Source of the DNA: Betaproteobacteria bacterium
GTDB lineage: Bacteria; Pseudomonadota; Gammaproteobacteria; Burkholderiales; SG8-41
Assembly (NCBI GenBank): GCA_021732605.1
Contig: JAKFUS010000041.1
Coordinates: forward strand, 1-64,000
DNA: 64,000 nucleotides
Reading direction: 5' to 3'
Shown here: piece after piece, positions 55,681 to 59,566 of the stretch
Position numbering within the stretch: the stretch's first letter is position 1
Layout of the letters: each line of letters begins with the position of its first letter
Made by a program: the position numbers and the translations under genes
Notes under the pieces: generated by a model
Told to the model about the DNA's origin: nothing
The model's database searches: none
Seen by the model: the letters and a program-made list of their open reading frames with translations, nothing else

Positions 55681-55879
55681 TCACAAAGATCCGCAGTCCC
55701 CCGTGCCTTCGCCGGTTTTCCCGCAGGACAAGCAATGGGCTTTCAAAAAACGCGCCGGCATTTACGAGTCTGACGTGACAGCGCTGGTGCGCTGCATGCT
55801 CGAAGACGAGTCGATTCGTGAAGACCAGCGTTTGGCGTGGGAGCGCTGGCGCAATGATCCGTCGGGACTCAAACGATGA
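55673..55879 (+). CDS. Small hypothetical protein (68 aa)
   Basis: MSDHKDPQSPVPSPVFPQDKQWAFKKRAGIYESDVTALVRCMLEDESIREDQRLAWERWRNDPSGLKR; overlaps stop and start of both neighbours. Confidence 0.6.
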   Translation: MSDHKDPQSPVPSPVFPQDKQWAFKKRAGIYESDVTALVRCMLEDESIREDQRLAWERWRNDPSGLKR

Positions 55880-56847
55880 AAGTTTCTATCAAACAACTAG
55901 TCGTGCTCGGTGCAGCGTTTATTGCTGCGACTACTGCGGCAACGGCGCAGAACTATCCCTCGCGCCCGGTGCGCTTTGTCGTGCCCTACGCGCCAGGCGG
56001 CAGCACCGACACGCTGGCGCGGTCGATGGCAATAAAGCTTTCCGAATTGCTGGGTCAGCAGGTGGTCGTCGATAATCGTCCCGGTGCCAATGGCGACATC
56101 GGCATGACCATCGTTGCCCGGGCACCCGCCGACGGATACAGCATCGTGCTGGGCTACATCGCCAATCTCGGCATCGGGCCCAGCCTGTATGAAAAGATGC
56201 CCTACGATCCGGTGAAGGACTTTGCATCGATCACGCAGGTCGCGGGCGCATCCAATATATTTGTCACCCATCCTTCGTTGCCGGCGAAAAACTTCAAGGA
56301 ATTCATCGCCTATACCAAGGCTAATCCGAAAAAAGTGTCATTCGCCACAGCCGGTGTGGCCAGCGTGGGCCACCTGACCGGTGAATTGCTGAACGACATG
56401 GCCGGCATCGACATGCTGCACGTGCCGTACAAGGGCAGCGGCCAGGCGATTTCCGATCTGGTCGGCGGCCATATCAAGGTCATGATCAGCGGCATGGCGT
56501 CGACGCTGCCGCAGGTGCGTTCCGGCAAACTGAACGGCATTGTCACCACCGGCCTGAAGCGCACGCCGGCGACCCCCGACATTCCGACCATCGCCGAGAC
56601 TTTCCCCGGCTTTGAATCGAGTTCGTGGTTTGGCGTGCTGGCTCCGGCGGGCACCCCGAAGCCGATCGTCACGCGCTTGAATGCCGACATCCACAAGTCA
56701 TTGCAGGATCCGGCTGTCGCCAAGCGGCTGGCTGCTGTCGGTTTCGAGATCACTTACGGTACGCCGGAAGAATTTTCGGCTTACATCAAGTCTGAAATCA
56801 AGAAGTGGGCTAAGGTGGTGAAGGCTTCGGGGGCGAAGCCGGATTGA
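55876..56847 (+). CDS. Bug-family tripartite tricarboxylate transporter substrate-binding protein
   Basis: NYPSRPVRFVVPYAPGGSTDTLAR; VDNRPGANGDIG. Confidence 0.93.
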   Translation: MKVSIKQLVVLGAAFIAATTAATAQNYPSRPVRFVVPYAPGGSTDTLARSMAIKLSELLGQQVVVDNRPGANGDIGMTIVARAPADGYSIVLGYIANLGIGPSLYEKMPYDPVKDFASITQVAGASNIFVTHPSLPAKNFKEFIAYTKANPKKVSFATAGVASVGHLTGELLNDMAGIDMLHVPYKGSGQAISDLVGGHIKVMISGMASTLPQVRSGKLNGIVTTGLKRTPATPDIPTIAETFPGFESSSWFGVLAPAGTPKPIVTRLNADIHKSLQDPAVAKRLAAVGFEITYGTPEEFSAYIKSEIKKWAKVVKASGAKPD

Positions 56848-56923
56848 GTGTCCGAAATACACCCCGGCGCTGATGTTATCCACGTTATGCGGCTCGGAGT
56901 CATGGCGTAGTACACTGTGAGCG

Positions 56924-57112
56924 ATGAGGGTCAAGGACTTGATTGCGTTGATTGAGGCGGACGGTTGGTTTCAGGTTCGCATGAAAGGCAGTCACCGGCA
57001 GTTTCACCATCGTGCGAAACCGGGCACAGTGACGGTTTCGGGAAAACCAAGCGTGGATATTCCGCCAGGGACTCTTAACAGTGCACTGAAGCAAGCTGGC
57101 CTCAAAAAGTAG
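56924..57112 (+). CDS. hicA: HicA-family mRNA interferase toxin
   Basis: DLIALIEADGWFQVRMKGSHRQFHH. Confidence 0.92.
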   Translation: MRVKDLIALIEADGWFQVRMKGSHRQFHHRAKPGTVTVSGKPSVDIPPGTLNSALKQAGLKK

Positions 57113-57123
57113 GAGAAAATAAC

Positions 57124-57339
57124 ATGCGTTATTTGGTTGTCGTTGAAAAAGGGCCGCAGTCATTCGGAGCCTACGTACCCGATTTGCCAGGCTGTATCGC
57201 AGCGGGCGAATCGAGAGAAGAGGTTTTGACTCTTATCCGTGAGTCCATCGAATTTCATCTTGAAGGTCTCCGGGAAGACGGCCACCCGGTCCCCTCTCCC
57301 TCCAGTTCCAGTGAAGTTATCGAAGTCGCAACCGTATAA
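57124..57339 (+). CDS. hicB: HicB-family antitoxin (short form)
   Basis: GAYVPDLPGCIAAGESREEVLTLIRESIEFHLEGL. Confidence 0.92.
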   Translation: MRYLVVVEKGPQSFGAYVPDLPGCIAAGESREEVLTLIRESIEFHLEGLREDGHPVPSPSSSSEVIEVATV

Positions 57340-57404
57340 CCATCGTTCTGAAGCGGATCCCGCAAGGCTCCCCTGCGCTCCTTTGAGCGCGTGCAACGCA
57401 GGAT

Positions 57405-57557
57405 CGTAGGGTGGATTAGTCGCACGCCCGAAGGAAGTCCTCTTAGGGGATAGCGACGTAATCCGCCGGTTCGCAGTTGATATGCGTGACATCGTTGCGC
57501 CTCACATACGTAAGCGTTTCATTCGGCGGAATGCGCTACGCTTATTCCGCCCTACGC
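57405..57557 (+). mobile_element. MITE-like palindromic element with terminal inverted repeats
   Basis: CGTAGGGTGGATTAG at left, CTTATTCCGCCCTACG at right (rc CGTAGGGCGGAATAAG); contains repeat copy 2 at 57406-57469. Confidence 0.7.
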
Positions 57558-57650
57558 GTGCTGATCGTGATGCTGGGTAGTGGCGACAAGTCCACGCAAG
57601 TTGCAGATATTTCCAGGGCCGTGAAACTCGCGACCCGAATAGAGGAGTAG
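57555..57650 (+). pseudogene. C-terminal remnant of RelE/HigB-type (HI1419-like) toxin
   Basis: Frame reads LRVLIVMLGSGDKSTQVADISRAVKLATRIEE* directly before the antitoxin gene; N-terminal part absent. Confidence 0.8.
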
Positions 57651-57653
57651 ATG

Positions 57654-57959
57654 ATGGCCAAGAAAATCCGTGTAGCTGATCTGCCCGAATTCGATGCTGC
57701 CGAGTACCTTGATAGCGAGAAAGCCATCGCCGAGTATTTGACAGCGATGATTGAGGGAGGTGATTCAGCCATGCTGGCGGCGGCGTTGGGCGATATTGCC
57801 CGAGCGCGTGGCATGAGCGAAATTGCCAAGGCTTCCGGGCTCACCCGTGAAGCGTTGTACAAGGCTTTGCGACCCAATGCGCAGCCGCGCTTTGAAACGG
57901 TCAGCCGGGTTTGCGCTGCCTTGGGAGTCCGGTTAGTGGCTCAACCCGCATCGCATTAA
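57654..57959 (+). CDS. HigA/HI1420-like addiction-module antidote
   Basis: FDAAEYLDSEKAIAEYLTAMIEGGDSAMLAAALGDIARARGMSEIAKASGLTREALYKAL. Confidence 0.9.
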   Translation: MAKKIRVADLPEFDAAEYLDSEKAIAEYLTAMIEGGDSAMLAAALGDIARARGMSEIAKASGLTREALYKALRPNAQPRFETVSRVCAALGVRLVAQPASH

Positions 57960-58019
57960 GCTTGATTCCAAATTAACGGAGTAAATTTTCTAAAAACTTA
58001 CACTGACCCTATTTATTGC

Positions 58020-58214
58020 TTGCGTATCCGCTTTAAGGTTTTGCTTCGCGATAGATTTACCTGTTGCGGCTGTGGCAAGAGTCCTGCGACCTCAATCGGC
58101 ACGATACTTCATGTTGATCACATCGTGCCTTGGAGCAAGCGCGGCGAGACCGTTCTTGCAAACCTGCGCACGTTGTGTTCAAAGTGCAATCTTGGCAAGA
58201 GCAATGTACTTTAA
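58020..58214 (+). pseudogene. HNH endonuclease C-terminal domain, probably truncated
   Basis: RIRFKVLLRDRFTCCGCGKSPATSIGTILHVDHIVPWSKRGETVLANLRTLCSKCNLGKSN; frame open upstream only to 57966 with no recognisable N-terminal domain. Confidence 0.7.
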
Positions 58215-58315
58215 AATTTTCAGAAGCTGGCAACGCATTCAGTCTTTACGCAAAAACAAAGTGAAGCGTCGATTTTGGACGCTAGTGAATGCGAGTTTTC
58301 TTTTAAACTCGCAAC

Positions 58316-59566
58316 CTACCGCCGCACGATCCCCAGCTTCTCGTAAATAGGCCGTATTCCGGCGAGGATGTCCTGACGCTTGCGCGCCAGCACCAGCGCC
58401 GCAGCCACGCAGCACAATCCTCCAACCGTGATCGTCGCGCGCGGCCCGACGATGTCGGCCAGTGCACCAGCCGCCAGCGCACCGAAGGGCATGATGCCAA
58501 GGAAAGCCACGGTGTAGAGGCTCATCACCCGGCCACGTTTGTCGTCGTCGACGATGGTCTGCAGGATGGTGTTGACTGATACCGACGTGACCAGGATGCC
58601 GAAACCGACGACCGGCAGCAACAGCAGCGCGAGCCATACCGAAGGGGCATTGGCGAACAGCACCAGCGCCGTTCCGGCCGAGAACACGGCGATGATGATC
58701 AGCCGGATCAGGCCGCGCGCGTTTTTGCGCGAGGCCAGGTACAGCGTGCCGCAGATGGCGCCGCCGCCCGAAGCGCTCATCAGGAAACCCATCAGGTCGG
58801 CATCGCCGCTGAACACTTCGCGCACCATCACCGGCATCAGTGCCGAATAAGGTGTCGCGACAAAAGCCACGACGGCCAGTGTCAGCAGCAGCGCGCGGAT
58901 CGGCAGCGTGTGCCAGACGTAGCCGAATCCTTCGCGTAAACCGGCCAGTACTGAGGTTTTGACCGGCTCGCGCGGCTGCGGCCGGTTGCGGATCATCATG
59001 AAAGAAATCACTACCGCGATGTAGGTCAGGGCATTGATCAGGAAGCAGTGCGCCTCGCTCAGCACGCCGATCAGGATGCCGGCAATCGCGGGGCCGACCA
59101 TCCGGCCGCTGTTGGCCATCAGTGAGGTCAGTGCAATCGCATTGGGCAGATCTTCCTTGCCGTCGACCAGTTCCAGCAGGTAAGCGTGGCGGATCGGCAG
59201 TTCGAAGGCGACCAGCACCCCCATCACCATGGCGAGTGTGACGATATGCCAGGGGGCGATGATGCCGGCGAGCGCCAGCGCGGCCAGCGTTGCCGCTTGC
59301 AGCAGTTCGAGGATCTGCGTGGCAAACATTGCGCGGTGCAGGTTCCAGCGGTCTGACCACAGCCCCGCCAGCGGTGACAGCAGCAGGATCGGCAGACTGC
59401 CGGCAAAGGCCATGACGCCCAGCATCGTCGCCGATCCGGTCAGCCGGTAGAGCAACCAGCTCTGCGCCACCATCTGGATCCAGTAGCCGATCAGCGCAAA
59501 AATCTGGCCGGCGAGGAACAGCCGGAAATTGCGATGGCGCAGAGCGCGCAGGGAAGGCAGAGACAT
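58316..59566 (-). CDS. MFS transporter (EntS-like)
   Basis: FRLFLAGQIFALIGYWIQMVAQSWLLYRLTGSATMLG. Confidence 0.92.
   Translation of the reverse strand: MSLPSLRALRHRNFRLFLAGQIFALIGYWIQMVAQSWLLYRLTGSATMLGVMAFAGSLPILLLSPLAGLWSDRWNLHRAMFATQILELLQAATLAALALAGIIAPWHIVTLAMVMGVLVAFELPIRHAYLLELVDGKEDLPNAIALTSLMANSGRMVGPAIAGILIGVLSEAHCFLINALTYIAVVISFMMIRNRPQPREPVKTSVLAGLREGFGYVWHTLPIRALLLTLAVVAFVATPYSALMPVMVREVFSGDADLMGFLMSASGGGAICGTLYLASRKNARGLIRLIIIAVFSAGTALVLFANAPSVWLALLLLPVVGFGILVTSVSVNTILQTIVDDDKRGRVMSLYTVAFLGIMPFGALAAGALADIVGPRATITVGGLCCVAAALVLARKRQDILAGIRPIYEKLGIVRR

Follow-up and report, generated by a model that had tools for sequence, protein, structure and literature searches.

A HigBA toxin-antitoxin pair reduced to its antitoxin beside a GTAG REP doublet at a variable cargo site of a Burkholderiales genus

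A type II higB-higA toxin-antitoxin pair has very probably decayed in the stretch of DNA analysed here (the window; 64,000 nucleotides of contig JAKFUS010000041.1, from a Betaproteobacteria bacterium of the order Burkholderiales). The starting state would have been an intact pair (TIGR02683/TIGR02684) at a cargo site bordered by a Bug receptor gene and an MFS transporter gene. A rearrangement would then have joined a segment ending in hicAB and a GTAG-type REP doublet to the middle of higB, removing the higB promoter/operator and codons 1-68. What is left is the last strand and helix of the toxin and the complete antitoxin gene. The rearrangement appears to have been a deletion or the replacement of a segment, and the REP doublet would mark its edge. 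The features of the site are collected in Table 1.

Table 1. Features of the Bug-MFS site, with positions in the window
Feature	Position	Strand	Evidence
TTT receptor (Bug/TctC-like) gene, left border of the variable site	55876-56847	+	Orthologue in 21/21 genus genomes, 78-95% identity
hicA toxin gene, intact	56924-57112	+	PF07927, E 3e-20
hicB antitoxin gene, intact	57124-57339	+	PF15919, E 2e-13; DNA 90% identical to G007 (L033) up to 57401
GTAG-type REP head-to-head doublet (REPIN-like), forms the junction	57405-57556	no strand	152 bp; copies in G010, G005, G007, G011 and on contig C7 of the same genome
27-nt nested repeat, tip of the left REP hairpin	57425-57451	+	Absent from the G010 copy
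higB toxin 3' remnant (codons 69-98 and stop)	57557-57650	+	TIGR02683 positions 68-94; 86.7% DNA identity to L032 from 57557
higA antitoxin gene, intact	57651-57959 (homologous start 57654)	+	TIGR02684, E 4e-35; PF21716, E 3e-34; 94% amino acid identity to G015
C-terminal HNH endonuclease domain, apparently a gene fragment	58020-58214	+	PF01844, E 5e-13; frame open upstream to 57966
MFS transporter gene, right border of the variable site	58316-59566	-	Close orthologue (at least 68% identity) in 20/21 genus genomes

Only codons 69-98 of the 98-codon HigB remain. They occupy 57558-57647, followed by a stop at 57648-57650, and the codon at 57558 corresponds to V69 of the 98-aa toxin. In a profile search, the remnant matches the last part of TIGR02683 (95 positions) with an E value of 6e-6, and its 26.5 bits lie below the full-length cut-off of 62.85. 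A 57-codon fusion ORF is present at 57477-57650. The intact toxin, modelled from a 34-sequence alignment (mean pLDDT 89), has a RelE/HigB fold. A fold search with this model returned HigB1 of M. tuberculosis as the best solved match, followed by E. coli RelE; sequence searches gave no solved structure for either the toxin or the antitoxin. In the model, the break falls between strands 59-66 and 69-76, and therefore only the last strand and the C-terminal helix are left. The lost part holds 12 of the 18 residues that are invariant across intact relatives, and the invariant G76 is a serine in the remnant. Since four of the five strands of the modelled fold are missing, the remnant is probably non-toxic.

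No intact toxin was found in another frame or elsewhere in the genome, and the missing first 68 codons were not found elsewhere in the assembly, which is 96.5% complete. Apart from the remnant, TIGR02683 matches just one gene of the genome, a distinct paralogue on contig C8 (C8:6435-6698; L055). This second, distant toxin is intact and has its own antitoxin.

The position of the break is given by two relatives. The same-genus genome G015 (L032; JALHND010000009, a Burkholderiales MAG) carries a complete higB (98 aa) and higA in its Bug-MFS gap, with neither hicAB nor the doublet. DNA identity between G015 and the window, about 87%, begins at 57557, the base after the last CCCTACG of the doublet. 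In the sister genome G007, whose MFS gene is 96% identical, the homology downstream of hicB ends just before the doublet (Table 1); about 29 unrelated bases follow and then the MFS gene, with no higBA. Since homology to G015 starts on the right of the doublet and homology to G007 stops on its left, both edges of the doublet are homology edges. A preliminary description of this DNA had placed the start of the toxin block at the right end of the repeat, with no toxin N-terminus upstream and an intact antitoxin downstream. The comparison bears this out: homology to the intact toxin of G015, at the same locus, sets in at the end of the element, and hicB with its downstream DNA lies where the start of higB would be.

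The gap between the Bug and MFS genes (56848-58315 in the window; L132-L151) ranges from 19 bp to 2.4 kb across the genus. It holds higBA, another HigBA pair, a RelE-type toxin with an HTH partner, Abi_C, a nucleotidyltransferase, a methyltransferase, HNH or almost nothing, and is thus a genus-wide variable site whose cargo frequently includes toxin-antitoxin or abortive-infection genes. The window is one allele of this site, where cargo is turning over across the genus. The HNH fragment of the window is missing from G015 at the same site. In G007, a truncated hicA runs at its end into the N-terminal start of an HNH gene (..SKTYTDHI; L033 1007-1060). The window and G007 hold complementary pieces of the HNH gene, which meet near the same KTYTD motif.

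The doublet begins with CGTAGGG at 57405-57411 and ends with CCCTACG at 57550-57556. Its outer tags, GTAG at 57406-57409 and CTAC at 57552-57555, are each followed by a palindrome whose stem pairs, and a spacer of about 60 bp separates the two. Two inverted palindromes with outer GTAG tags are the layout of a head-to-head GTAG dimer (PMC3733652) or REPIN (PMC3116915). The predicted fold has an energy of -61.1 kcal/mol; shuffled sequences average -48.2 (z -3.3). Rfam gave no match. The copy in the same-genus genome G010 is 95% identical over 109 bp, and more diverged copies are found in G005, G007 and G011 and on contig C7 of the same genome; the doublet is therefore a real repeat. In full length, it is single-copy in the assembly, and each sister genome has few copies. 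The copies of G010 and G005 share the Bug-MFS gap and the orientation of the window copy but have other cargo beside them. The doublet may therefore be a long-standing feature of the site and not what disrupted higB. Among the eight Y1_Tnp matches in the genome, the flanks of four were examined and none had the REP of the doublet, and a RAYT is no more than a candidate for its mobilisation. The preliminary description had called the element MITE-like, about 153 bp long with terminal inverted repeats. The inverted ends are real and the length is 152 bp; the label is roughly right for a head-to-head REP doublet, less so in that a target duplication is lacking and no examined transposase gene is flanked by the REP.

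The tip of the left REP hairpin contains a 27-nt unit, GCGCCCCGAAGGAAGTCC(C/T)CTTGGGGG, which is also found at L016, L038, L059 and L245-L271. It occurs in 17 of the 21 genus genomes, with 31 copies in the genome of the window and 0 for a reversed control pattern. Its hosts are the tips of GTAG REPs, of CGTC-type REPs (GTCATTCCGGC..GCCGGAATCCAG) and of one terminator-like stem. The unit also forms 27-nt tandem arrays, some of them at contig ends. When the flanks are joined without it, a fold spans the junction in 11 of 41 cases, compared with 7 of 123 random positions. From its distribution, the unit looks like a small rider that settles in the hairpin loops of unrelated repeats. A literature search by its sequence found no paper, and it may be the least explained item of the case.

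How the junction arose can be approached from its flanks. The DNA on the left is that of hicB and its downstream region, not the start of higB; the start of the toxin is absent; and the flanks share no direct repeat of 3-8 bp, that is, there is no target-site duplication. The junction is therefore better described as the probable seam of a larger replacement or deletion in the variable intergenic site than as a simple insertion. A history in which the REP doublet first inserted into higB and the upstream half of the toxin was then lost separately would account for a breakpoint lying exactly at the element end, and some ORFs are indeed interrupted by GTAG REPs (PMC3733652). Such a history requires two events, and the lost half of the toxin is nowhere in the genome. 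With hicAB DNA as the left flank, we rejected this model as improbable. Inactivation of the toxin by insertion or deletion of the element, as first proposed for this DNA, thus stands as to the inactivation and fails as to simple insertion. It is far less probable still that the junction is an assembly chimera formed at the repeat. The genome is a draft of 75 contigs, several of which end in short repeats; the full-length doublet, however, has no second copy in the assembly, and both flanks lie inside one Bug-MFS syntenic frame that is found across the genus.

Within the preferred reading, a rearrangement that joined hicAB and the doublet to mid-higB, the single genomes compared allow two orders of events. 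The hicAB-doublet segment may have replaced the front of higB, or a segment with the higB tail, higA and the HNH tail may have been joined behind hicAB. The latter is favoured because hicB and the MFS gene are adjacent in G007. The doublet could be an ancestral resident of the site, as it is also there in G005 and G010, or a later arrival. That the break and the end of the repeat coincide in one genome is no proof that the repeat was the cause.

The antitoxin gene itself is complete. It matches TIGR02684 over the whole length with 119.8 bits (curated cut-off 53.7) and PF21716 with 117.4 bits (curated cut-off 27), and its ORF is conserved. The gene directly upstream is no functional toxin gene, as codons 1-68 are absent. 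An ATG at 57651 directly follows the stop of the remnant, and the start homologous to that of the relative is at 57654, which makes the gap 0 or 3 nt and not the 4 nt of the preliminary description. The dN/dS between this higA and that of the intact relative is about 0.03-0.05 (NG86), a value that indicates long constraint and does not date the loss of the toxin.

Of 47 intact relatives, 46 have a palindrome, GTAATCG-NN-CGATTAC, upstream of higB (1.3% in a shuffled control). Because of its position and conservation, we take it as the putative operator. It is not found in the window, where it was lost together with the toxin start. The closest sites in the genome have three mismatches to it, and a search of 56840-58000 gave no consensus promoter. 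The missing operator speaks against regulation by higA, and retention of the antitoxin as a regulator, suggested earlier for this DNA, is not supported for the window copy. A regulon role of the orphan HigA was likewise rejected, as the genome offers only three-mismatch operator sites, none of them in the window. The gene is most likely a recently orphaned antitoxin gene that is still intact. It would now be carried as harmless baggage; at most, with transcription reading through from hicAB, it could neutralise incoming HigB. Judging from this arrangement, such an anti-addiction function would be possible only with read-through expression.

Toxin-antitoxin biology predicts that the toxin is lost before the antitoxin. 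A scan of a genome collection with the antitoxin as query gave 80 loci, 78 of which were assessable. In this set, which is biased to intact antitoxins since the loci were found through higA (its frame is open in all loci used), higB is apparently whole in 47 loci and broken or absent beside an intact higA in 31. The lesions in the 31 loci, sorted finally by eye on translations, comprise start-codon loss, nonsense changes, frameshifts, internal deletions that keep the first codons and the stop region, and 5' replacement as in the window; some of the single frameshifts may be sequencing errors. The operator palindrome is kept in 24 of the 31 loci, and the window belongs to the operator-less minority. 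Across 300 genomes of the order, among the matches listed, several of the best antitoxin matches have no listed toxin neighbour, and nearly all of the best toxin matches have an antitoxin neighbour.

The NG86 dN/dS of higA to the nearest intact relative has a median of 0.099 at loci with a broken toxin and 0.088 at intact loci (p 0.87); therefore, there is no detectable relaxation and no dating of the toxin loss. In pairwise bins, pairs of broken loci have somewhat higher values (0.11-0.20 vs 0.09-0.11). The pair L222-L228, which shares a lesion, differs by one nonsynonymous and two synonymous changes and is too close to measure.

Upstream ORFs of broken higBA loci include HEPN, PIN, BrnT and HipA, each once or twice, and none of these is among the 25 of 62 families listed upstream of intact loci. 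The adjacency of other toxin-antitoxin genes to broken higBA is suggestive only. The orphan higA genes at L193, L186 and L231 immediately follow a PIN, HEPN or HTH antitoxin gene, and that of the window follows hicAB. Stacking of toxin-antitoxin cassettes is possible.

These data also bear on whether the antitoxin is kept for its own sake. Tentatively, and as the less probable reading, selection in the HigBA family may keep the antitoxin and not the pair, with toxins broken in about 40% of loci by unrelated lesions, beside antitoxins that are open, conserved and mostly still equipped with the operator. If so, higA would be a recurrent stand-alone neutraliser or an autoregulated DNA-binding gene, and the window would be an extreme case in which the operator has gone too. 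That selection keeps higA in this particular genome, as an anti-addiction neutraliser of incoming HigB or as a regulator, seems doubtful as well. Its low dN/dS, its full-length ORF and the many relatives that keep higA without a working higB, mostly with the operator, are what such selection would leave. However, the dN/dS includes the time before the toxin was lost, loci with a common lesion have diverged too little for a measurement, and a survey through higA favours intact antitoxins. Furthermore, the window copy has lost its operator, sites elsewhere in the genome have three mismatches, and the search for a consensus promoter between 56840 and 58000 gave none.

The case is a new instance of known things, namely a REP doublet, an orphan antitoxin and a toxin-antitoxin cargo site. 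It is instructive rather than exotic because toxin-first decay is common in the HigBA family. It is a base-exact example of a pair whose decay at a cargo site begins with the toxin, in a genus that also offers intact and alternative alleles, and the survey, with 31 of 78 toxins broken and the operator kept in 24 of these, makes selection on orphan antitoxins testable within one family. Like the GTAG dimers and REPINs described before (PMC3733652, PMC3116915), the doublet has inverted palindromes, outer GTAG tags, a spacer of about 60 bp, a large predicted hairpin, an intergenic location and diverged copies at several sites. It differs from them in its few copies per genome, in the 27-nt insert in one hairpin tip and in the lack of a RAYT flanked by its REP among those examined. 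With the HigBA module of the HI1419/HI1420 families (TIGR02683/TIGR02684, PF05973/PF21716), the pair shares the toxin-antitoxin order, the profiles, the palindromic operator upstream and the RelE-like toxin fold, whereas codons 1-68 of the toxin and the operator are missing in the window. Type II orphan antitoxins are known, for example, from a K. pneumoniae survey (PMC7192599), in which antitoxins likewise persist in the same genetic context although their toxins are gone or degraded. Here, in contrast, an intact syntenic relative fixes the break to the base, and operator-less and operator-keeping classes of orphan can be separated.
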